From an uncultured Pseudomonadales bacterium (GTDB lineage Bacteria; Pseudomonadota; Gammaproteobacteria; Pseudomonadales; Porticoccaceae), in NCBI GenBank assembly GCA_943788895.1, contig CALSRZ010000006.1, positions 62,001 to 126,000 of the forward strand: a stretch of DNA of 64,000 nucleotides. Reading direction: 5' to 3'. The translations under genes were made by a program, and so were the position numbers. The notes below the pieces were generated by a model. That model was not told the DNA's origin. It saw nothing but the letters and a program-made list of their open reading frames with translations, and ran no database searches. Numbering within the stretch: position 1 is the first letter of the stretch; every line of letters starts with the position of its first letter. Of the stretch, positions 7,871 through 56,652 are shown piece by piece.

Positions 7871-7944
<74 letters not shown>

Positions 7945-8071
7945 TCAAAAACTTGTATATAAACTTCCCGTCGGTCTCACTCTTTAGACGGTCGGAAGAA
8001 TCTTAACAGCCTACAGGCTGTTAATCCCCTTCGGGCTTCGCTTCGCTCGTTGCTAATTGCTTCGCAATTGG

Positions 8072-8127
8072 TCGAACCGACGATGGCGGAGTTGCAGTCC
8101 ACAGCATTACCACTTTGCTACCGCGCC
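8072..8127 (-). pseudogene. Truncated tRNA-Cys copy ending in the T-loop
   Basis: The 5' part of tRNA-Cys, from the acceptor strand through D-arm, anticodon (GCA), variable loop and T-stem to GGTTCGA, repeats exactly 183 bp away. It then diverges into a hairpin (8055-8069) instead of completing the T-arm and acceptor, so it cannot fold as a tRNA. The upstream flank of the tRNA (7945 to about 8010) is also duplicated at 8128 to about 8205, with a few substitutions. It is therefore a tandem duplication of flank plus truncated tRNA. Confidence 0.88.
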
Positions 8128-8285
8128 TCAAAAACTTGTATATAAACTTCCCGTCGGTCTCACTCTTTAGAAGGTCGGAAAAATCTTAACAGTCTTTAAA
8201 CTGTTAAGCCCCTTCGGGCTTCTTGCGAAGAGGCCGTATTCTAGGGAATACCAGCAATAAATCAACTACTTATCGCCCCTAATAT

Positions 8286-13772: not shown

Positions 13773-14957
13773 CTACATGCCTCTCGTCAGCAGCAGGACG
13801 GAGATATCGTCTTGGGGGGCTTCGACAGTATCGACAGAGAGCGACTCTTTTAACTTCTCGATATTATCAGAGCTGGTGGCCAGGTAACTGAGCAGGGTCT
13901 GTTCCTTATCAGCAATCTCTTTGTCGGGTATTAAATCGAAGACACCATCGGAGAGCAGTACAAAGGCAAATTTTTCCGGCAGGGTCATCTCTTCAACAAC
14001 CCAGGAGGCATCTTCAAAGATACCGGCGGGCTTGCCCTTTCCAGGGAGATACTCGGCATGGCCCTCGGTAACCAGAATTGGCGATGGCTGCTGGGCACCC
14101 ACTACATAACGCAATTTACTGGTCTCTGTATCCAGGGATCCGGCAACGATGGTCAGATGCTTGCCGAGACCTGTGGCCAGCAGCTGATTGTTTATATGTT
14201 CAACCAACCCTTCAGGTGCCTGTGCCAGCGCCACATAGTCTTGTTCCAGCTGGTGACGGCGGATTACCCGGCCAATCATAAAGCGCAGCAGAACGGTAAC
14301 AAATGCCGAGGAGGCACCGTGGCCGGAGACATCGGCAAAGTAAAACAGCAGGTAGCGGCCAAGGACAAAGTTATAGCCGACAAAGTCGCCACTTAAATAG
14401 AGTGATGGGGTGATCGAGTGAGAGATTTCATAGTCACCAAACTTTAATGGGCTCTCTGGCATCAGGCTCTTCTGCACTTCGAGCCCGGCCATCTGGTCCT
14501 GCTTTAGTAGCCGTAAGCTCTCCTGCAGTTCGAGATTGGTTTTTTCCAGTTCGCTGCGATAGAGCCTTTTTTGCAGGCGCGATTCTGCGCGTCGGTCAAT
14601 GCGCTGCAGGGTAGCTTTAATTTTCTCTTCGCTGGGCTCAGGAAAGACCACATCGGCAACGCCGAGACGAAAGTATTCGGCAATATTCTCAATACCCGCT
14701 TCGCTGAGTGCAACAATGACCAGGTATTTAGTGGCCATCACTTGCAGCTGTTCGCGCTGACTGTCGGTTTCCAGAGGAGTGTTTTCAGAGCTGATAACCA
14801 CTGGTTGAATCAGTGGGTCGGAGCAGAGGCTGGCTATGGATTGGTAATTTTGCGCCGCCGCAGTCTCCCGGCCAAGGGATTGGAGACTGTGACCTAAACT
14901 TTGCACCCTGGGTTCATTTCCATTGAGGAAAATAATCAGGCTTGATGCTTTACTCAT
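13773..14957 (-). CDS. Response regulator with PP2C-type phosphatase domain (HsbR/RssB-like)
   Basis: This 394-residue protein has an N-terminal receiver-like domain (LIIFLNGN..., PVVISSENTP, GVADVVFPEP), a coiled coil at about residues 110-150, and a C-terminal SpoIIE/PP2C phosphatase. Phosphatase motifs are FYFADVSGHGASSAF and FVLLSDGVFDLI, which hold the metal-binding aspartates. The expected substrate is the STAS protein encoded directly downstream. I start at the ATG of MSKASS; an ATG 33 bp upstream is possible. The usual phospho-acceptor Asp of the receiver is not obvious (GNEPRV, SSENT), so it may not be classically phosphorylated. Confidence 0.82.
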   Translation of the reverse strand: MSKASSLIIFLNGNEPRVQSLGHSLQSLGRETAAAQNYQSIASLCSDPLIQPVVISSENTPLETDSQREQLQVMATKYLVIVALSEAGIENIAEYFRLGVADVVFPEPSEEKIKATLQRIDRRAESRLQKRLYRSELEKTNLELQESLRLLKQDQMAGLEVQKSLMPESPLKFGDYEISHSITPSLYLSGDFVGYNFVLGRYLLFYFADVSGHGASSAFVTVLLRFMIGRVIRRHQLEQDYVALAQAPEGLVEHINNQLLATGLGKHLTIVAGSLDTETSKLRYVVGAQQPSPILVTEGHAEYLPGKGKPAGIFEDASWVVEEMTLPEKFAFVLLSDGVFDLIPDKEIADKEQTLLSYLATSSDNIEKLKESLSVDTVEAPQDDISVLLLTRGM

Positions 14958-15124
14958 CGCAAACCTGTCTTGTGCATTGGGCCAGCTCAAACTTGCCAGA
15001 GTCGCGCTGGTTAAAATCAGGCACCATTGGGCGCCAATAGAGTACTGCTTTTATCATTATTAGGTGTTCCAAATCGAGTCCTATCAGTTATTGATAGGGC
15101 TCTGATGAAATTTATCGTCTGCTA

Positions 15125-15823
15125 TTAATAATCTTCAAAATCACCGAAATCGTCTTCTATTGCACCGTCGTTGACCAGGTATCTGTTGCGCTGCAAATAG
15201 ACATCTCGAACAAACAGATATTTGTCGCCAGAGATAACCCGGTCAATCTCGAGCAGGCTGGCTCTTTTGGCCAGCAGATCAACACCCCTGGCAGCATTTC
15301 GAGTTCTGACATCATCTACGTAAGAAAATGGACTGGTTATACTGTCGACGAATTTACTCGGGGCATCCCTCAATGTCGACGGGCCTATAAGCGGCAGCAT
15401 CAGGTAAGGACCTTCACCAACACCCCAGACTGCCAGTGTCTGACCAAAATCTTCGCCATCACTTTTTTCCAGACCGGCGCGCTGGGCAACATCGAAAAGG
15501 CCGCCGATGCCTATAGTTGTATTGATCAGGAAGCGTCCACTGTCATGGGCTGCCTGACCAAATTTTCCCTGTAAAAGATCGTTGAGCACGTTGGTCACTT
15601 CATCGAGGTTGCCAAAAAAATTATCAACGCCTTTCTCCAGGGGATTTGGCATCACAGTTTTGTAGGCCACTGCAGCCGGACGCAGGGCGTATTGGTCGAG
15701 ACGATCATTGACAGTGAAAATCTTGCGATTGAGATTTTCAAATCTGTCATCATCAGCAAAAACCGGTATTGCCACCAATCCCGAAAGAATTACAGCAACT
15801 GCTGCCAAGCTTATCTTTTTCAT
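15125..15823 (-). CDS. mlaA: MlaA/VacJ family phospholipid-transport protein lacking a lipobox
   Basis: This 232-residue protein carries MlaA motifs: FENLNRKIFTVND, FGNLDEVTNVLNDLLQGK, GRFLINTTIGIGGLFD, DFGQTLAVWGVGEGPYLMLP and GPSTLRD. MlaA with OmpC removes misplaced phospholipids from the outer leaflet and passes them to MlaC. Typical MlaA is a lipoprotein. Here the leader ends GLVAIPVFADDDRF with no cysteine, so signal peptidase I cleavage after AFA-like VFA is predicted. No other mla genes are adjacent. It is probably monocistronic, with a 97-bp gap to the next gene. Confidence 0.88.
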   Translation of the reverse strand: MKKISLAAVAVILSGLVAIPVFADDDRFENLNRKIFTVNDRLDQYALRPAAVAYKTVMPNPLEKGVDNFFGNLDEVTNVLNDLLQGKFGQAAHDSGRFLINTTIGIGGLFDVAQRAGLEKSDGEDFGQTLAVWGVGEGPYLMLPLIGPSTLRDAPSKFVDSITSPFSYVDDVRTRNAARGVDLLAKRASLLEIDRVISGDKYLFVRDVYLQRNRYLVNDGAIEDDFGDFEDY

Positions 15824-15920
15824 AAATTTACTCGCAAATCGTTTGCATATTTATATATCGAGGCATTCTACTGCTCAATGTGAGCCGCGTACACAGCCTG
15901 AGGGACTTGAGGATAAAAAA

Positions 15921-16682
15921 TTAATGGAATCCGCAAATAATATCTTTACTGCGCAACTGTAATAGTAGATCAAGGCCGAATTGAAGCAAGGCCTGAGGAT
16001 TGGGATGATTGAGTTCAGAGGCCAATTTAAGCAGCGCCTCTCGACCTGAGAGGTTCTCTTCGCGAAATATTTCCAGCAGACGGCTGGTGGTGGCATTGGT
16101 TTCAAGAAAGCCTATTTGTAGTGCGCGATTGCGATAGACAATAAGATGGGTCGGGACAGCCTGATCCGCTGTCGGTTGAAATTCCGGGCCTATCATCTGC
16201 ACCTGGTAGTTGTAGCTTAGGGGCCAGGCAAGCGGTGAAACGATCGGCCGGTCGGCGAGTAGATCGCCGTCACTTTTAGCGTTGGGAAATTCCACTGTTG
16301 AGGTGTCCAGCGCCAGCTCTACCCATTCATAATGGGCCAGCTCGAGAAGAAACCCGGGGTCGCTTTCCAGGGGCTCACGCTCATTTTGCAAATAGTCGAA
16401 AAATTCGCTGCCTATTTGCAAAAAATAAGGACTGTGGCTCTGGTGATGGTGGATAAAGTCGCGAACCATCGCTGTCCACTGCTCTGGATCGGTAATGGAT
16501 TTAAGGATTGGAAAGCCATTGGCGACGAAGGTCTGGATATTATTAAAAAACAGGTTGCGGTAGATATCCATGCGGCGATCTTCGATTCCCTGAGGCGCTG
16601 GATTGCTCTCGGGGCTACGGATATGGGCAGCAAACTCTATCTGCGCCTGTTGAAAGGATGGCCTTTGGGAATCACTGGTCAT
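15921..16682 (-). CDS. hvfC: HvfC/BufC-type DUF2063 partner of MNIO enzyme
   Basis: This 253-residue protein is of the DUF2063 (putative DNA-binding by name only) family. The conserved N-terminal pattern is MDIYRNLFFNNIQTFVANGF and SPYFLQIGSEFFDYL. These proteins act as substrate-recognition partners of DUF692/MNIO enzymes, binding the precursor leader. Its ATG overlaps the stop of the MNIO gene by 4 bp, so the two are coupled. Third and last gene of the operon; no DoxX-type (BufD) gene follows. Confidence 0.88.
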   Translation of the reverse strand: MTSDSQRPSFQQAQIEFAAHIRSPESNPAPQGIEDRRMDIYRNLFFNNIQTFVANGFPILKSITDPEQWTAMVRDFIHHHQSHSPYFLQIGSEFFDYLQNEREPLESDPGFLLELAHYEWVELALDTSTVEFPNAKSDGDLLADRPIVSPLAWPLSYNYQVQMIGPEFQPTADQAVPTHLIVYRNRALQIGFLETNATTSRLLEIFREENLSGREALLKLASELNHPNPQALLQFGLDLLLQLRSKDIICGFH

Positions 16683-17557
16683 GCCTTGTTACCTGCTAAG
16701 GCTTGCTGACCGGCGTACCTGGCCTGGCGCACTGTTATCTGTTCGACTTCTTTAAGCAGCTCTTCGACCGGAGGGATATTAAAGTCTCGCTCCAACAGTG
16801 TCGGAAATGCGCCAAATTTCGCGTAGGCGGCATCGAGGAGATCCCAGACCGGATCAATCACATCGGCACCATGGGTGTCGACGCGCAGGTCTTCGGCTTC
16901 GTCGAAATGGCCGGCAATATGACCATAGGCAATACGCTCGCCGGGCAGTGCCTTAAGGAATTCGAGGGGGTCGTAGCTGTGGTTAATACTGTTGACGTAA
17001 ATATTGTTTACATCGAGCAGCAGCTTGCAGTCGGCTTTTTCCAGCACTGCATTGGTAAAGTCGATCTCTGACATCTCCTGCTGAGGCGCTGCATAGTAGG
17101 AGACATTCTCCATGGCGATACGCTGGCCGAGAAAATCCTGTATCTGCAGTATGCGCTCAGCCACATAGTCGACAGCCTCTTCGGTAAAGGGTATGGGCAT
17201 CAGGTCGTAGAGATGACCACTGTCGCTGCAATAGCTTAGATGTTCTGTGTAGCAGCGTATGGAGTGTTCAGCCATAAAGGCCTTAATGGCTTTTAATAGA
17301 TCCCAATCGAGTGGTGAGGGGGAACCTATTGAGAGGGAGAGTCCGTGGAGGACAAAGGGAAACTTTTCGGTGTATTCTCTAAACGCCGCACCGTAGCGGC
17401 CACCGACATCAATCCAGTTTTCCGGCGCAACCTCCATAAACTGAACCTGTTCTGGGGACACAGAAGAAAGCGGGCCACAAAGTGCCCGCCTTAATCCCAA
17501 ACCCGCACCCTGAACAGGGTAGCTTTGTGTTTTTTCAAGCATTGATTCTGATGGCAT
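16679..17557 (-). CDS. hvfB: HvfB/BufB-type MNIO (DUF692) RiPP-modifying multinuclear iron oxidase
   Basis: This 292-residue TIM-barrel enzyme carries the DUF692 metal ligands in order: FVLHGLSLSIGS, YTEHLSY, IAMENVSYY, LLLDVNNIYVN, IAYGHIAGH, VDTHG and LLERDFNIP. MNIO enzymes use a di- or tri-iron centre and O2 to convert cysteines of precursor peptides into oxazolone/thioamide or thiooxazole groups. The adjacent precursor has eight EGKCG motifs, the substrate type described for HvfA. It lies 22 bp downstream of that gene and overlaps the DUF2063 gene. Confidence 0.92.
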   Translation of the reverse strand: MPSESMLEKTQSYPVQGAGLGLRRALCGPLSSVSPEQVQFMEVAPENWIDVGGRYGAAFREYTEKFPFVLHGLSLSIGSPSPLDWDLLKAIKAFMAEHSIRCYTEHLSYCSDSGHLYDLMPIPFTEEAVDYVAERILQIQDFLGQRIAMENVSYYAAPQQEMSEIDFTNAVLEKADCKLLLDVNNIYVNSINHSYDPLEFLKALPGERIAYGHIAGHFDEAEDLRVDTHGADVIDPVWDLLDAAYAKFGAFPTLLERDFNIPPVEELLKEVEQITVRQARYAGQQALAGNKA

Positions 17558-17579
17558 TAAAAGCTGGCTTTTAAGCTAG

Positions 17580-17927
17580 TTAAGCAGCGCCGCCACATTT
17601 GCCTTCGCCGCACTTACCTTCAGCATCAGCTTTGCTTTCGCCACATTTGCCTTCGCCGCACTTGCCTTCAGACTCGGCCTTACCTTCACCACATTTGCCT
17701 TCGCCGCACTTGCCTTCAGAGTGAGCTTTTCCTTCTCCGCACTTACCTTCACCACATTTGCCCTCGGCGTGACCGTCGGCAAGGTTGTAGCCTGAGCGCA
17801 ACTCGTCGGCTTGGAAGGGGTTTTCAGCGGCGAACGCTGGTGATGAGATTGCTGCAGTGGCGAGGAATGCTGCACTTAGTGCTGTTGCTGTTGCCTTAGC
17901 CAAGGGTTTGATATTTTGTTTATTCAT
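17580..17927 (-). CDS. hvfA: HvfA-type EGKCG-repeat RiPP precursor (metal-binding, secreted)
   Basis: This is a 115-residue precursor. A Sec signal peptide (MNKQNIKPLAK... ending SSPAFA-AENPF) is followed by a short leader (FQADELRSGYNLADGHA). Four 16-residue repeats follow, each starting with two adjacent EGKCG units and then EGKAxS-like spacers, so there are eight EGKCG motifs and eight cysteines; the last repeat ends GKCGGAA. I start at the ATG at 17925-17927, with GGAG 8 nt upstream. In the related bufferin/HvfA families the cysteines are modified by the MNIO enzyme and the product binds copper or other metals in the periplasm. First gene of the operon behind a sigma-E-like promoter. Confidence 0.92.
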   Translation of the reverse strand: MNKQNIKPLAKATATALSAAFLATAAISSPAFAAENPFQADELRSGYNLADGHAEGKCGEGKCGEGKAHSEGKCGEGKCGEGKAESEGKCGEGKCGESKADAEGKCGEGKCGGAA

Positions 17928-18023
17928 TAGACTTTCTCCATGTGTTAGTAATAGCTGGTTAATCATTTACTAGGCATTCAATTTTTACCTGCACCCCATT
18001 CCAAGTTAATTTTGGGATGCTGT

Positions 18024-18051
18024 TCTGACAAATGAGTCTATACGAAGTTCC
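18024..18051 (-). promoter_or_regulatory. Sigma-E (RpoE/ECF) type promoter of the hvfABC-like operon
   Basis: On the reverse strand, GGAACTT (18051-18045) is followed by exactly 16 nt and TCAGA (18028-18024). This fits the RpoE consensus GGAACTT-N16-TCnnA. It lies about 97 bp before the precursor ATG, leaving an untranslated leader of about 90 nt. Confidence 0.75.
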
Positions 18052-18101
18052 GCTTTAAGAGATAGATATTTCTATCGGGCTCTGGGCACTATTTTTATAG
18101 A

Positions 18102-21100
18102 TTAAACCCGGAACCTTCGCAACTCGTCTTCAATTTCATCCCAGCGCTTTTGCAGCCGCTTGAGAGATACCGGAACACGGGTTTTTAACTGCTGGGCAAA
18201 CAGCGAGACCCGATATTCTTCGACTAGCCAACAGTAGTCCCGCAGTGCCTTCTCAAGCTCAGAGGAGAGCGGCTGGTCATCTACCAATGCCTGCTTGCAA
18301 GCGGTCAAAAGCGTCTGCAGCTCGTCAATATGCTGGCGATCTTTACTGACCTGTGCGGCAAGCTTTTCGAGGCGCACCTGCAGAGCTTTGATATAGCGCG
18401 GATACTGCCTGATCGACTCGGTGGAGCTGGTCGATAAGGTCTCGGCGCTAAACAACCAGTCCAGCTGGCTGCGAATATCATCAGCTGCATAGATAGCGGG
18501 CAGACCCAGAGCTCTCAGCTTCTTCTGGCAATCGTGCAAAGGGGTTAGTAAAGATTCTATGGCCTGACCATGTTCCTGAGCAAACATCACCACATTGGCA
18601 ATTCCCGACTCAAAGGCCTGATCAAACTGCTGCTGTTCTCTAAGTACCTGTCCATCGGCAAATATTGCCTGCTGGAAACTGGCGTTAATCAGGGCATCGA
18701 CCAGCGTTTTTCTCTCGCCAATTTTGGCAGCCGTGATTGCCAATTCTTTACTGCGCAGCAGATGCTTGCTGAGATATTTAACCTGATCACGACCCTTTAA
18801 TAGCGCCAGCCGCAACTGACCCTGGCGGCTGGTTTTTTCCGCCTGCAGCGGGTTATCAATCACTTCAAGAGAGACTGATTCTCCACAGTCGCGCAGTGCC
18901 GGCCAGGCTTTGATGGTGATTTTACCGTGCTTTAAAGCCACCTCTTCTGGCAACTCTTCAAAGTCCCACTCGACAATACCCTGCCTTGTTCTGTTCTCCT
19001 CTGCGTTCTGGTCGGCGGCCTGCTCAAGCCCCTCGGAAATCTGCTGCTTAAAGTCCTGCTGAAGCTTTTCAAGGCTCCGGGCCATAGCAATCTCGGCGCC
19101 ATTTTCATCTTCGAGCACAAAATTCATCTGATACCAGGCATCGAGATTTTCCGGCTTCCACTGTTCCGGCACAATAGCCACGCCGGTTTGCTTGTGCAGA
19201 TACTCTGCCAGCACTTCGGTTAGCGGCCGATCCTGGGGCTTGGTTTTTAGCAGAAAGGCATCGACATAGTCCGGGACTGGCACAAAGTTGCGCCTTGTCT
19301 GTTTTGGCAGGCTTTTTACCAAGGCAATACATTTGTCGCGCAACATGCCCGGCACTAACCATTCAAAAAAGTATCTCGGTAGTTGATGCAACAGCGGCAA
19401 CGGCACGACGGCGCTGACACCATCTTCAATATGATTGGGCTCAAAATGGTAACGCAGGTTATAGCTAATACCCTGATAGCTGATGATTTCGGGAAACTGG
19501 GTCTGCTCTTCCTGGGAGAGGCCGCGTAGCAGTAGGTACTCTTTTTCGAGGACTAATAATTTTGGCTCGCTGGCCTCGACCTGTTTGCGCCATTTTTCAA
19601 AGAGCGCCAGGTTGTATATTCCAGTGGGGATTCGCTCGTTGTAGAACTCAAAAATAACCTGCTGCTCTACCAATAGATCGCGGCGACGAAAGCGATCTTC
19701 AAGGGCCTGCAGTTCTTCGACCAGCTTTTGGTTTTGCGTATAAAACTGACCTTTGCCGCGATAGCCCTCTTCCACCAGCGCCTGCTGAATAAAAATCTTG
19801 CGCGCTTCATCCGGATTGACCTGCCCGTAGACGCGGCGTTTGTTTTCAACAATGCTCAGACCAAACAGGGTCTGCCGCTCACTGGCCATAACCTGACCGG
19901 ATTTAATGCTGTAAAACGGTTCGCTATAGGTCTTTTTCACCAGGTGGGCAGCGAGTGGCTCGAGCCAATCGGAATCAATTTTCGCCACGGTAAGGGCGAA
20001 CTGTTTGCTGGTTTCCATCAACGAACCGGCCATCACCCACTTCGGTGGTTTTTTGCTCAGACCAGAGCCGGGGAAGATAAAGAATTTGCGGTTGCGAGTA
20101 CCGAGGAACTCCCACTTGTCCTGAAGGATACCCACCTGCCCTAATAAGCCGGCGAGTAGTGAACGGTGGATATCATCGGCCTCGGCAGGCTTGCTGTTAT
20201 CTGTAAGTTTTAATGCTCGACAGGCGCTGTGTACCTGATGGTGCAGGTCGCGCCACTCGCGCATGCGCAGATAGGAGACATAGTTGGCTTTGCAGTAACG
20301 ACTATATTGATTGCCGGAGAGTTGCTGGCGCTGCTCTTCAAAATGACGCCACAGGTTTAATAACGAAATAAAGTCGGAGTTCGGCTCCTGCCATTTTTTA
20401 TGGCTTTGATCTGCGGCCTGCTGTTTGTCGGCGGGGCGCTCGCGGGGATCCTGAATACTCAGGCCAGTGGTGATTACCATCACCTCGGAGAGACAGCCGT
20501 TTTTCGCCGCCTCTAACAGCATACGAGCAAATCTGGGATCCAGTGGTATATGCACTATACGTTTGCCGAGGGCGGTTAATTTGCCATTGGCAGTGACCAC
20601 CTGAAGTTCTTCGAGCAGTTTAAATCCATCGCTGATCATGCGCTGATCGGGCGCATCAACAAAGGGGAAACTGCGAATATCACCGATCTTAAGATGCAGC
20701 ATCTGCAGAATAACTGCCGCTAGATTGGTGCGGATAATTTCTGGATCGGTAAACTCGGGGCGGCCCTGAAAATCCTCTTCACTGTATAGGCGATAGCAGA
20801 TACCTTCGCTTACTCGACCACAGCGTCCAGCGCGCTGATTGGCACTGGCCTGGGAGACTGCTTCGATAGGCAGTCGCTGTACCTTGGTGCGGAAACTGTA
20901 GCGCGAGACTCGCGCGCGGCCGGTGTCGATCACATAGCGAATACCGGGCACGGTCAATGAGGTTTCAGCGACATTGGTACTCAGCACCACCCTTCGCCGC
21001 GGTGGGCGGAGAATATTTTACTCTGCTCGGCAAGACTCAAGCGGGCATAGAGGGGAACAATTTCGGTATGCGGCAGCTGCGCGCGCTTTAGGGCCAGATT

Positions 21101-22033
21101 GACTTCGCGAATCTCACGCTCGCCACTGAGGAAGACTAAAACATCACCCTGCTTTTGATTGGCCTGAATATCCCGCAGGCAGTCGACAATCATCTGGTCG
21201 CGATCGCTCTCGATATCGTCGGGATGGTTATAAATAATATCTACTGGGAAGCTGCGGCCCGAGACTTCGACTATGGGTGCGCCATCGAAGTGGGCGGAAA
21301 ATTTTTCCACATCGATGGTCGCCGAGGTAATGATGATTTTTAGATCGGGCCGCTGGGGCAGTAAATTTTTCAGGTAGCCGAGTAGAAAGTCGATATTAAG
21401 GCTGCGCTCGTGGGCCTCATCGATAATCAGGGTATCGTATTTGCTGAGAAAGCGATCGTTCTGAATTTCCGCCAGCAGAATACCGTCGGTCATCAATTTG
21501 ATATAGCTGTTTGGCGAGCTCTGGTCAGAAAAGCGCACCTGGTAACCGACGGCTTCGCCGAGAGATACCTTGAGCTCTTCAGCAATACGATTGGCTACTG
21601 TGCGTGCGGCAATACGTCGCGGCTGGGTGTGGCCTATCATGCCTTTGACACCACAGCCGGCCTGCAGGCAGATTTTCGGCAGCTGGGTGGTTTTACCGGA
21701 GCCGGTCTCGCCGGCAATAACAATCACCTGATGCTTGCGGATTAATTCGGCAATTTCATCTGCTCTGGCGCTGACCGGTAGATCTGGATACTCAAGGGTT
21801 GGCAGGTTTTGCCGGCGCTTTTCGATCTGCTGCTGGTTTTTTAACAGTGCCCCATGCCATTTTTCCCAGCGCGTGCCGATATCTTTGCCCTGCTGGGATA
21901 GCTTATTGAGCTCGGCCAGTTGGCGGCCTAATCTAAAGCGCTCGGCGGTGCTGGTCGATTGTTCGACTAGTGTTTTGAGTCGCTGAAAATCCTGCGCACT
22001 GCTGGGTCGGTTTATCTCTTGCGCTGCTGACAT
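18102..22033 (-). CDS. hrpA: ATP-dependent RNA helicase HrpA, interrupted by one frameshift
   Basis: Two adjacent frames together encode a full-length HrpA (about 1311 residues; E. coli 1300). The upstream frame (22033-20981) has Walker A GETGSGKTTQLP, the DEAH box IIDEAHERS and SATID. The downstream frame (20990-18102) continues with TNVAETSLTVPGIRYVID, QRAGRCGR, the HA2/OB region and the long HrpA C-terminal domain. The break is near 20990-21000, where GCGAAGGGTGG apparently lacks one base; inserting an A (GAAAGGG) restores HRGERVVLSTN. It is either a recent mutation or a sequence error; the rest of both frames is well conserved. DnaQ lies 8 bp upstream. Confidence 0.9.
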
Positions 22034-47565: not shown

Positions 47566-47644
47566 TTTTTATCTACTCCCCAGAGAAGAACATTAATCTA
47601 TTAAATACTTGTTAGTTGCCGAAGCCATTAGCGACACTCTATAC

Positions 47645-47800
47645 AGAGCCTTCAGCGTCTTGTAATAAAAAGCAGAGCCTTCAGCGTCTTGTAATAAAGC
47701 AGCCTTCAGCGTCTGTAATAAAGCAGGCCTTCAGCGTCTTGTAATAACAGAGCCTTCAGCGTCTGTAATAAGCAGAGCCTTCAGCGTCTTGTCATAAAAA
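47645..47800. repeat. Six imperfect tandem copies of a ~28-bp unit between gcvT and gcvP
   Basis: The unit is approximately CAGAGCCTTCAGCGTCTTG followed by TAATAAAAAG. Six head-to-tail copies differ mainly by one-base gaps (GTCTTG versus GTCTG) and by loss of AGAG or AAAA. It fills the gcvT-gcvP gap where gcvH would normally lie. There are no spacers between copies. No reading frame spans it. Confidence 0.9.
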
Positions 47801-47801
47801 G

Positions 47802-48924
47802 CTAACCACGAAAATAACGCTGCGGAACCAAGGGCATCTTCGCAATAGTGATTGGCCGTGCAATACCGCGTACCAGCGCACTGTGTTTGGTTCCTACAGC
47901 TGACAGTTCAGTCGGCACATAACCCATCGCAACTGGCGCTTGCAGGGTAGGCCCAAAGCCACCGCTGGTAATAGCGCCAATAACATTACCCTGCATCATC
48001 GACAATCTCTGCACCCTCGCGAACCGGTGCGCGGCCATCCACCAAAAAGCCAACACGTTTTTTAGCGGCCCCATTGGCAATCTGCTCAAGAATCGTCTCA
48101 GCGCCTAAAAAGCCGCCCTCTTTAGCGCCACCGGCACGACGGGATTTACTGATACTCCAGATAATGCCGGCCTCAACTGGTGTGGTCTGCTGATTCATAT
48201 CATGGCCATAGAGACACAGGCCCGCCTCCAGACGCAGAGAGTCCCGTGCACCGAGACCAATCCAATTAACAGACTCATAGGAAAGCAATTTATCGGCCAG
48301 TTTATGGGCATTTTTCGGATCGACAGAAATCTCAAAACCATCTTCGCCGGTATAACCAGAGCGCGTGATATAGCAGTCGATACCATCAATAGAGGTGTGG
48401 CAGCCATTCATAAATACCAGCTTATTGGCTTCAGGTGATAACTCAGCCATCACCTCTTTGGCCTTTAAACCCTGCAGCGCCAGCAGTCCACGATCGCCCA
48501 GATAGGTAATATCAAAATCGCCAAGATGGTTGCGGATATGGGCTATATCCTCATGCTTACAGCCGGCATTGACCACCAGAAAGAAAGTATCCTCAGCCCA
48601 GCGCGTAACAATTAGATCGTCGAGCACCCCGCCCTGCTCATTGGTCAGGGTTGCGTAGGTCTGCTGATTGATTGCCAGAGCTTCCAGATCAACAGGCATC
48701 AGTTTCTCAAGCGCCAGAGCAGCGCCCTCGCCTTTTACAATAACCTGCCCCATATGGGAGACATCAAATAAACCGGCATTATCCCTGCTGTGTAGATGCT
48801 CTTGCTTAATACCAGCACTGTATTGCACAGGCATAAGATAGCCGGCAAAAGGCACCATCTTGCCCCCTGCACCCAGGTGGTAATCGTAGAAAATAGTCTT
48901 TTTTACTGGAGTATCTGTAGTCAT
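47802..48924 (-). pseudogene. gcvT: Aminomethyltransferase (T protein) of glycine cleavage system, one frameshift
   Basis: The product (about 373 residues when repaired) is a folate-dependent GcvT: MVPFAGYLMPVQYSAGIKQEHLHSR is read across the start, with FDVSHMGQV, DLIVTRW, SGYTGEDGFEI and GLGARDSLRLEAGLCLYGHD following. Near 47996-48002 the frame changes from APVREGAEIVDDAG to a second frame with GNVIGAITSGGFGPTLQAPV through RYFRG. Removing one G restores it. gcvH is missing from this locus. A 161-bp AT-rich region (48925-49085) separates it from the divergent LysR gene, with an ATTAAT-ATT-ATTAAT element that could bind the regulator. Confidence 0.88.
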
Positions 48925-50474: not shown

Positions 50475-52606
50475 ATGGCGAAGATACCATTTAGTCAGTT
50501 TCACAAAGCCTGTGGCCTGCTGGCCCTGCTGTTATTAACCGGCATGGGTCAGGCTATTGCTGAGGAATTCACTGTTTTTGATCAGGGCAGCGCCCCATCT
50601 ACCTGGGACAGAGGAATCAGCGCCTTTGACTCGGCAATCGGCTATGGCGTCTGCAGCAATGACGGAGGCAATGGCTGCCCAAGTATCAGCTGGGCAACAG
50701 TCAACGACAGCCAGCGCGGCTCAGTACTGCAAATTAGCCACAGCGCTTCGGGCAATCTGGCCGGCCTGTTTATTTCCTCTGGTTCAGGTAAAAATTTGAG
50801 TAATTATGCCGGCGGTAATATTGTATTTGATATTAAGGTGGTTTCTGGCAACAGCAATATCACTATGAAAATTGACTGCATATACCCCTGCACATCCGGC
50901 GACCAGCCACTGGGGAGCAAAGGAGCCTCAGGCTGGGAAACAGTCACTGTATCTGTGGACTCACTGGTTTCCTCTGGCTTAAATCTATCGCAAGTAGATA
51001 CCGGCATAGTGATCTGGGCAAGTAACTCAACAAGCACTGTATTCCGCATTGATAATGTTCGCTGGGAGACTTCTGGTGGCGGCGATGGCGGCGGTACTGG
51101 TGGAGGAACTGGCGGAGGCTCTGGCTCAGTCGGTTGCTATTGACTCAAGCAAATGGTTTCACCAAACCCAACTACCAAGTGGCGGCAGCTGGTATAACAA
51201 CGAACAGCAGCATTACACCAACCGTATTGAGAACGCCTATGTCAGCGATGGCAGCCTGAAAATTGTTGCCAAAAAAGAATCCTTTTTTAATCAGGGACAA
51301 ACCAAACAGTACACCTCTGCCCGCCTCAATTCCAAATATGCCTTTAGATATGGGCGCGTGGTAGTTAGAGCAAAACTACCCACTGGCGCTGGCACCTGGC
51401 CAGCGATCTGGACTCTGGGTAAAAATATCAATGAAGCTGGCGCCTACTGGCAGACCCAGGGTTTCGGCAATACAAATTGGCCGGCCTGCGGTGAGATAGA
51501 TATTATGGAGCACTGGGGTAATAACCAGAACTTTGTCCAGAGTGCTATGCATACGCCGTCCAGCTATGGCGGCACCGTCAATCACGGCGGTCAGGTAATC
51601 AGCACAGCTTCCACACAATTCCACAACTATGAGATGGATTGGAATAGCCAACGAATAATTTTTAGTGTTGATGGCAATGTTCATTACATCTACCAACCTT
51701 CCGTGAAAAACTCTTCCACCTGGCCCTACAACGCAGAACAGTACCTGATATTAAATGTTGCTATACAGGACAGTATCGCGTCGAATTTCAGCCAGTCAGC
51801 TATGGAAATTGATTACGTTAGAGTCTATGCAGAAAATGCCAGCGCTTCCGCCCAGCCAATTTGGTCAGACGAATTTAATACCGACAGTGGAGTAGATACA
51901 GATGGCGATGGTATTGATGATAGCCTGGACTCAGATGATGATAATGATACCTATGCTGATTCAATCGACGCCTTCCCGCTGGATAATTCCGAGTGGCTTG
52001 ATACAGATTCCGACGGCACAGGTAATAATGCCGATACGGATGATGATAACGACAACGTCAGTGATTCACAGGATGCATTCCCGCTGATTTCCTCAGAGTG
52101 GGCCGATGCAGATTCCGATGGCACTGGTGACAATGCCGATACAGATGATGATAACGACAATGTCATCGACTCACAGGATGCCTTTCCCCTGAATTCTTCC
52201 GAGTGGCTTGATACAGATGGCGATAACATTGGTAACAATGCAGATACTGACGATGATAACGATACCGTTATTGACTCACTGGATGCATTCTCACTGTTAG
52301 CCACTGAATCGATTGATACAGATGGTGATGGCATCGGTGATAACGCCGATACAGATGATGATGGCGACGGTATCCTCGATAGTCTGGACAGCTTCCCATT
52401 GGATTCAACCAACACGCCAACCAATGTTATGGATATTGATGGTAATGGCCAGAGTAGATGGATTAACGGATGTTATGCTGGTTCTTCGCTATGTATTTGG
52501 CTTTAGCGGTGAATCCTTGATCGATGGAGTCGTTGGCGATAATGCTACCCGAACCAGTGCCGCTGAAATTGAGGCTCATCTTGAATCACTGATGCCGACT
52601 TTTTAA
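50475..52606 (+). pseudogene. Secreted GH16 glycosidase with TSP3 repeats and C-terminal dockerin-like domain, two frameshifts
   Basis: Three frames compose one protein of about 710 residues. N-terminus: signal peptide (LLALLLLTGMGQAIA-EEF), a carbohydrate-binding-like beta domain, and a Gly-rich linker (GGGDGGGTGGGTGGGSGS). Middle: a GH16 domain with catalytic motif EIDIMEHWG, typical of laminarinases. Then aspartate-rich thrombospondin-3 repeats. C-terminus in a third frame: VDGLTDVMLVLRYVFGF through AEIEAHLESLMP, a dockerin-like end seen in marine hydrolases. Breaks are near 51138 and 52452; both fit one extra base. The WSDEFN motif that should open GH16 instead lies after it (51862-51879). 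Confidence 0.82.
51895..52410 (+). repeat. In-gene tandem repeat encoding Asp-rich TSP3 calcium-binding units
   Basis: About five units of roughly 100 bp encode DTDGDGIDDSLDSDDDND-like segments alternating with AFPL(D/N)xSEW. Such thrombospondin type 3 repeats bind calcium and act as rigid spacers between catalytic and anchoring domains. The repeats are the region most likely to mis-assemble. Confidence 0.85.
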
Positions 52607-56017: not shown

Positions 56018-56630
56018 GGTTTAAAGGATTAGCATGATTGGGTTGGTGCTGGGTGAAGGGATTGATTGTTAAGACCCTAAAGGGACTTAACAACCCCTGC
56101 GGGGCGCCCTGCGTGCGTCCAAAATGCATGCGCATTTAGTGATCACTAGCAGGCTGAAGCCTGTTATTTAGTCCTGCGGACCGCCTGCGGCGTCCAAAAT
56201 GCATGCGCATTTAGTCGAACCGGCTAGGGTTCTCACCCGAATTCTTCGCAAATAAAAAAGCCCCCTTCTTGAGAGGAGGGCTTAACGGAATAGCATGTTG
56301 GGTGGGTACTGGGAGAAGGGATTGATAAATAACAGGCTGAAGCCTGTTATTTAGTCCTGCGGACCGCCTGCGGCGTCCAAAATGCATGCGCATTTAGTCG
56401 AACCGGCTAGGGTTCTCACCCGAATTCTTCGCAAATAGAAAAGCCCCCTTCTTGAGAGGAGGGCTTAACGGAATAGCATGTTGGGTGGGTACTGGGAGAA
56501 GGGATTGATAAATAACAGGCTGAAGCCTGTTATTTAGTCCTGCGGACCGCCTGCGGCGTCCAAAATGCATGCGCATTTAGTCGAACCGGCTAGGGTTCTC
56601 ACCCGAATTCTTCGCAAATAAAAAAGCCCC
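56018..56630 (-). repeat. 183-bp tandem repeat array downstream of tRNA-Ser
   Basis: Two complete, nearly identical 183-bp units (56214-56396 and 56397-56579), a partial third that runs into the tRNA-Ser terminator (56580-56630), and a diverged unit at 56018-56213. Each holds, on the reverse strand, GGGTGAGAACCC, a T-arm-like GCCGGTTCGAC, a hairpin TAAATGCGCATGCATTTT, a GC-rich hairpin, AACAGGCTTCAGCCTGTT, and a terminator-like stem (GCCCTCCT...AGGGGGC). Apparent short reading frames inside are repeat artefacts. Confidence 0.9.
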
Positions 56631-56652
56631 CTAAAAGGGGGCTTTTTTATTT
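56616..56652. terminator. Terminator of tRNA-Ser
   Basis: A 17-bp perfect stem, AAATAAAAAAGCCCCCT paired with its complement, and a 3-nt AAA loop. It directly abuts the tRNA-Ser 3' end. Its left half matches the terminator-like stem in the adjoining repeats. Confidence 0.85.

Follow-up and report, generated by a model that had tools for sequence, protein, structure and literature searches.

A predicted HvfABC-type RiPP operon in an uncultured Porticoccaceae bacterium, with hvfX encoded at an unlinked locus

Several systems have been described in which an MNIO (DUF692) enzyme and a DUF2063 partner act on a ribosomally synthesized and post-translationally modified peptide (RiPP) with EGKCG motifs, and in such relatives the loss of four hydrogens per EGKCG, the formation of 5-thiooxazole and the binding of copper have been shown (PMC12668002, PMC12538549, PMC13419390). 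The HvfA precursor of Haemophilus influenzae has three AEGKCGEGKCG motifs with six modifiable cysteines, and HvfX is encoded in the same hvf operon (PMC13419390). When mmrABC of Microbulbifer was expressed in E. coli, MmrB and MmrC removed 4 H from each modified site of the precursor to give bulbicupramide, which chelates copper (PMC12538549). In fontiphorin FonABC of Fontimonas thermophila, EGKCG repeats with seven sites in FonA are converted to 5-thiooxazole by the MNIO together with PME1, and Cu is bound (PMC12668002 / PMC13097082). The type 1 Buf_EGKCG/oxazolin proteins show a paired motif layout with repeats of 17 residues, and their loci combine genes for precursor, MNIO, DUF2063 and DoxX in various ways (PMC12452194). 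Herein, we analyzed a 64,000-nucleotide stretch (the window) of an uncultured Pseudomonadales bacterium of the Porticoccaceae, whose genome assembly comprises 1.95 Mb in 6 contigs and is 93% complete. The window carries a three-gene EGKCG/MNIO operon on the minus strand at 15921-17927.

For comparison, 561 MNIO relatives were confirmed in named genomes, and the best 80 of them, together with the window locus, gave 81 loci; some of those near the window (e.g., L036 and L037) apparently overlap genomes of the same genus. A precursor open reading frame (ORF) passed the position filter in 72 of these loci, the window among them, and these 72 precursors were compared. Among the nine left out, L041, L043 and L101 begin at the MNIO or close to it, precursors are present in L050 and L074, and none was recognized in L072, L087, L095 and L110; in L072, L095 and L110 an HvfX gene lies directly before the MNIO.

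Judged from its genes, the operon is an ordinary member of the published family (HvfABC/oxazolin, Microbulbifer mmrABC/bulbicupramide, fontiphorin), and relatives show the identical three-gene order and repeat grammar. Like mmrABC, it is a precursor-MNIO-DUF2063 operon of a marine gammaproteobacterium with di-cysteine cassettes, which hold five to eight cysteines (PMC12538549); the MNIOs are 68-72% identical, and mlaA also lies behind the operon in the six Microbulbifer loci among the 80 (L054, L063, L075, L078, L080, L101). The Microbulbifer units (L054, L063, L078) are 17 residues or shorter with KKK linkers, whereas the units here have 16 residues, also one fewer than reported for type 1 Buf_EGKCG proteins, and a cysteine-less EGKA/ESKA linker. 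With the H. influenzae system the locus shares HvfB and HvfC equivalogs above their cut-offs and paired EGKCGEGKCG motifs, but it has eight cysteines instead of six, an unlinked HvfX gene and a precursor that scores under the HvfA cut-off (PMC13419390). It shares EGKCG repeats with FonA, with eight predicted sites instead of seven. As in bufferin Buf1 (DUF2282) systems, an MNIO and a DUF2063 protein accompany a secreted, cysteine-containing precursor; a DUF2282 bufferin was nevertheless rejected, with no DUF2282 match in the window's genome and an MNIO score of 257 bits against the BufB equivalog NF050167 (cut-off 310).

Precursor, maturase and partner protein

The precursor gene (17580-17927, minus strand, 115 aa) begins with an ATG at 17927, preceded 7 nt upstream by GGAGA, and is followed by the MNIO gene (16679-17557, minus strand, 292 aa) and the DUF2063 gene (15921-16682, minus strand, 253 aa), in agreement with the first-pass annotation, which had proposed such an operon. 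That annotation had the genes follow one another without gaps, which is nearly right, as 22 nt separate precursor and MNIO and the MNIO and DUF2063 genes overlap by 4 nt. It had also let the unit extend to 18051; the precursor starts 124 nt further in, and 18051 is where a promoter-like element (18023-18051) begins.

By inspection, residues 1-33 of the precursor (17829-17927, minus strand) resemble a signal peptide, with a basic start, an Ala-rich stretch and a likely cleavage at AFA/AEN. This region is followed by ENPFQADELRSGYNLADGHA, four EGKCGEGKCG units separated by six-residue linkers, and a terminal GGAA. The cysteines are spaced 5,11,5,11,5,11,5, corresponding to four 16-residue repeats with eight EGKCG motifs in four pairs, and the repeat region (17583-17765, minus strand) shows a 48-bp DNA repeat with 3.6 copies over 17591-17762. 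The NCBIfam model NF050137 (KCGExKCG_twice) matched the precursor with 66.4 bits (cut-off 19.5, E 1.2e-18), far beyond chance, and three stretches of the genome exceeded this cut-off. Thus, the eight motifs and the signal-peptide-like start described earlier were borne out. Pfam gave no match to the precursor, and Rfam gave no element at the gathering threshold over 14900-18300.

Directly after the signal-peptide region, 69 of the 72 precursors have a PF-x-GY motif, with 5 to 8 residues between its halves plus an optional one. In the window it lies at 17766-17828 (minus strand), and P37, F38, G46 and Y47 were invariant in an alignment of 16 precursors. The segment is a candidate for recognition by HvfC and would remain on the mature peptide.

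The MNIO passed the HvfB equivalog NF003818 (442.2 bits, cut-off 360) and PF05114 (345.2 bits, cut-off 25), and its nearest solved structure by sequence was PDB 3bww (E 2.4e-78). Twelve ligand-type residues (H71, H106, E150, D182, N184, N185, H213, H217, D227, H229, E256 and D258) were invariant in all 81 aligned MNIOs, so the loss of iron ligands that the earlier annotation had named as refuting its proposal was not seen. The DVNN and DTHG motifs are intact and align with 3bww. Alanine variants of HvfB at N175, D242 and H244 are inactive (PMC13419390), and these two motifs appear to hold the equivalent residues. The third protein passed the HvfC equivalog NF050145 (304.3 bits, cut-off 142) as well as PF09836 and PF22106, consistent with a partner of the RiPP recognition element (RRE) type. 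The gene identities and the integrity of the ligands are therefore established by curated models and conserved ligand-type residues, and catalysis by this MNIO, transferred from published experiments on characterized relatives, is well supported by homology. The genome search yielded one MNIO and one EGKCG precursor, so the two presumably serve each other.

The paired layout had been taken to set this locus apart. Comparison of the precursors did not bear this out: 63 of the 72, window included, have the strict EGKCGEGKCG pair, and HvfA (PMC13419390) and the type 1 EGKCG proteins (PMC12452194) also show the paired layout. Eight Cys-Gly sites are the commonest number (24 of 72), and the exact cysteine spacing recurs in L036, L046, L060, L091 and L099.

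HvfX and the cassette site

The absence of a DoxX (HvfX) gene was the other supposed peculiarity, and it holds for the operon only, where the next gene is mlaA downstream and hrpA upstream. On another contig (G000:C3:333252-333818), between genes that by eye resemble a DEAD-box helicase and a MATE efflux protein, a DoxX protein passed the HvfX equivalog NF050144 (216.6 bits, cut-off 80). Twelve named isolates were chosen from the 80 loci for 3-kb flanks without HvfX; eleven of them have HvfX above the cut-off elsewhere, and Microbulbifer halophilus had none above it. Both traits thus fail as distinguishing marks, because the pair is common across precursors and HvfX is encoded elsewhere in the genome. 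Genes similar to HvfX (E up to 1e-4) lie inside the 3-kb flanks of 32 of the 80 named loci. The Microbulbifer authors delimit their operon as mmrA-C, regard the ORFs on either side as unrelated and do not use the word DoxX in the main text (PMC12538549).

To follow the two genes across the family, 112 genomes were surveyed, with counts taken among the matches listed, so that further copies are possible. All 57 genomes that carry an EGKCG precursor, and 8 of the 55 others, had HvfX above the cut-off. Both places were listed for 56 genomes (G063 had no precursor place among the matches listed): HvfX lay within 10 kb of the precursor in nine and not within 10 kb in 47. In four of these 47 the two share a contig at a distance of 0.42 to 1.24 Mb, and in 43 they are on different contigs of broken assemblies, in which they may still be close. 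In eight family genomes, mostly of group g10 (G068, G070, G072, G076, G077, G083, G085, G086), a second EGKCG precursor sits at most about 1 kb from HvfX, apart from the precursor-MNIO operon.

Within the genus, 46 of 50 genomes were surveyed (G025, G029, G049 and G052, without an MlaA match, were left out) and placed on a tree built from MlaA, RsbU-like and HrpA proteins. In 18 of the 46, the hrpA-mlaA interval measures 2058-2368 bp and holds hvfABC; three others have the cassette genes upstream of mlaA on a contig that stops short of hrpA, with hvfC in two pieces in G032. In 23, hrpA and mlaA are 4-257 bp apart without any hvf match. The remaining two are G019, in which mlaA is broken and no hvf gene was matched, and G045, with two hvfC fragments only. 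The cassette is thus present or cleanly absent at one site in most genus members, and its state changes at least 6 times on the tree. All 21 genomes with the cassette have HvfX above the cut-off (the G051 match contains internal stops), as does G045 with its remnant; it was found in none of the 24 genomes without the cassette. The association is striking in raw counts, and few independent events stand behind it.

In G024 and G046 of the same genus, an MNIO lies in a 525-aa open frame, with no EGKCG precursor match and no HvfX above the cut-off; it is probably of a different MNIO type. In the window, hrpA reads as two ORFs that overlap, 20981-22033 and 18102-20990 (together 18102-22033, minus strand), where genus relatives mostly read one long frame, and by this comparison the split is a frameshift or a sequencing error in the window's genome.

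A promoter-like element upstream of the precursor

Promoters of extracytoplasmic function (ECF) sigma factors have AAC at -35 and GTC or TCTAA at -10. An element of this type, GGAACTT-N15-GTCAGAA (18023-18051, minus strand), lies 95 nt upstream of the precursor start, and its strict form has no other match in the whole genome. A looser form of the hvfA motif matched 3 places in the genome against 4 in a reversed control, so only the strict form is specific. In the upstream regions of hvfA from 18 genus genomes, most members have G[GA]AACTT-N15-GTC[AT]GAA, and [AG]AACTT-N14-17-GTC occurred in 16 of 18 (shuffle mean 0.10, maximum 2). The hvfX upstream regions, compared for 15 of 20 fetched, had GGAATTT-N13-17-TCTAA in 13 of 15. 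Both the 16/18 and the 13/15 counts are post hoc, because the pattern was revised after reading the genus alignment: a first pattern requiring GGAA or AGAA found 3 of 70 and was replaced when most rows of that alignment read GAAACTT.

A fairer test was provided by the 62 upstream regions found among the 70 more distant loci L046-L115, although many of these are related to each other. Here, [AG]AACTT-N14-17-GTC occurred in 24 of 62 (shuffle mean 0.53, maximum 3 in 200 shuffles), and GAAACT was the most enriched hexamer (30 of 62, 5.5 expected). Sigma70 promoters numbered 4 at 15000-18300 (shuffle mean 3.0), no excess over chance, and none of them lay upstream of the precursor on its strand. The hvfA and hvfX elements resemble ECF promoters, and transcription of the operon probably starts at the one upstream of the precursor. 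Eight sigma region-4 matches were found in the genome, including, by eye, an RpoE-like gene next to RseA-like and RseB-like genes and another next to a ChrR-like gene; none of the eight could be tied to the element via promoter matches. At G000:C5:18542-18697 (L188), an ECF sigma gene is followed, by eye, by a ChrR-like cupin anti-sigma gene.

Because the operon and the unlinked hvfX are kept or lost together and both stand behind ECF-sigma-type elements (alike in layout, different in letters), they may form a split regulon. We tentatively suggest, at slightly less than even odds, that HvfX left the operon in this lineage yet remains its partner in trans. Searches limited to openly licensed papers found no report of this arrangement. 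The omission of HvfX may also explain the weak copper protection by operon-only expression in the Microbulbifer work.

Proposed working and alternatives

Taken as a whole, we read the locus as a standard HvfABC-type RiPP operon whose 5-thiooxazole peptide would bind soft metal in the periplasm, with HvfX acting in trans, and give this reading a probability of about 0.78. The precursor would be made ribosomally with its Sec signal peptide and the conserved PF-x-GY segment, and HvfC would recognize it and present it to the MNIO. A mixed-valent diiron MNIO would then oxidize every EGKCG cysteine by four electrons to 5-thiooxazole, giving up to about -32 Da for eight sites. The earlier annotation had expected oxazolone/thioamide or thiooxazole; 5-thiooxazole is the likely product here, the oxazolin chemistry having been reassigned to it in the fontiphorin work (PMC12668002; also PMC13419390). 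The modified peptide would be exported to the periplasm by Sec and there bind Cu(I) or a different soft metal, and HvfX, a DoxX-family protein often encoded adjacent to such genes and here at an unlinked locus, is presumed to assist from the membrane. The chemistry, export and metal binding we infer from the characterized relatives, and the sigma factor and physiological role are presumed.

Several observations weigh against this reading. The precursor scored 67.6 bits against the HvfA equivalog NF050188, below the cut-off of 95, and is therefore not classed as a strict HvfA. AlphaFold placed the precursor with a predicted local distance difference test (pLDDT) score of 42.9 and a predicted template modeling (pTM) score of 0.13 from a 16-row alignment, and did not reproduce the beta-helix with inward-pointing cysteines reported for an EGKCG protein (PMC12452194). 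There is no obvious metal gene among the operon neighbors, which were named mostly by eye. The hvfA-type element occurred in none of the 15 hvfX upstream regions and the hvfX-type element in none of the 18 hvfA upstream regions, and a single shared sigma factor is not established because neither strict form occurs at the other gene; a looser common pattern fits both (16/18 and 13/15). For the HvfX association, the genus tree gives only 5 independent pairs, of which 4 go the same way, 0 the opposite way and 1 shows no difference (sign test p 0.125; 5 pairs cannot reach 0.05). As to copper, the MmrA-C proteins were reported as not detected in Microbulbifer with or without copper, the protection of E. 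coli was slight, and the authors were hesitant to assign copper protection (PMC12538549). The copper-buffer role suggested here, which the earlier annotation had also proposed, is thus doubted for a close system.

These last results bear on the main rival, in which the chemistry is the same and the peptide serves against oxidative or chlorine stress in the envelope, as a sacrificial or redox-active thiooxazole or by protecting periplasmic thiols. It would suit the ECF-type element upstream of the precursor and the failure to detect the Microbulbifer proteins after copper addition (PMC12538549). The homologous doxX-DUF692-DUF2063 cluster of H. influenzae is induced by hypochlorite in dependence on the ECF sigma factor RpoE2 (PMC7907618), and in a Neisseria meningitidis anti-sigma mutant a doxX family gene and its sigmaE operon neighbors were up 12- to 36-fold (PMC3240639). 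However, copper binding is documented for several modified relatives, cells under copper stress grow better with bufferins (PMC12452194, PMC12668002, PMC12538549), and no sigma factor of the window's genome could be tied to the element; we consider this role unlikely, though the most serious of the alternatives. Cleavage of the precursor into small secreted chalkophores for copper acquisition, as for methanobactin, is much less probable. The MNIO belongs to the same enzyme superfamily as MbnB, but its match to the MbnB equivalog TIGR04159 (33.3 bits) is far below the cut-off of 325, indicating that it is not a methanobactin MbnB. The genus cassette between hrpA and mlaA holds hvfABC only, with no space for a protease or transporter gene, the precursor start is signal-peptide-like, and bulbicupramide or related products were reported as not detected in Microbulbifer extracts (PMC12538549).

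The two other alternatives are very improbable. One makes mlaA (15125-15823, minus strand, 97 bp downstream) part of the unit, linking the peptide to outer-membrane lipid asymmetry. In 28 of the 80 named loci, mlaA is indeed found downstream in the same orientation and inside the 3-kb flank, but hrpA and mlaA are 4-257 bp apart in 23 of the 25 genus genomes without an intact cassette (G019 and G045 being the exceptions), and because of this adjacency mlaA is judged a backbone neighbor of the insertion site, so that its membership in the unit is largely refuted. The other holds that, in a genome of this small size, the operon is in decay and no longer works. The repeated changes of cassette state and the genome with hvfC fragments only would fit decay, but here the three frames are open, neither a ligand-type residue nor any of the eight motifs has been lost, and HvfX is kept.

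Apart from the operon, the window contains a 183-bp tandem repeat of 1.8 copies at 7889-8222, which overlaps a tRNA-Cys and whose second copy duplicates part of the tRNA gene, and another 183-bp tandem repeat of 2.6 copies with 99% match at 56150-56632, adjoining a tRNA-Ser. A 25-bp tandem array of about 6 copies with small indels lies between ORFs at 47641-47802. The ORF at 51049-52506 (plus strand) encodes what we take, by eye, to be a GH16-type glucanase-like protein and, behind it, acidic repeats resembling thrombospondin type 3 (a 105-bp repeat in the DNA).

By itself, the locus is one more member of a family of thousands that already has characterized members. Only two leads, the ECF-type promoter and the HvfX encoded in trans, appear to go beyond the openly licensed literature found. 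Surveys limited to the MNIO neighborhood would score this lineage as lacking HvfX, although its genomes carry HvfX at an unlinked place. The function of HvfX and the signal for these peptides are left open in the studies of the relatives (PMC12668002, PMC12538549, PMC13419390). The presence or absence of the cassette at a single site, together with the conserved promoter-like element, would offer handles on HvfX function and on the inducing signal.

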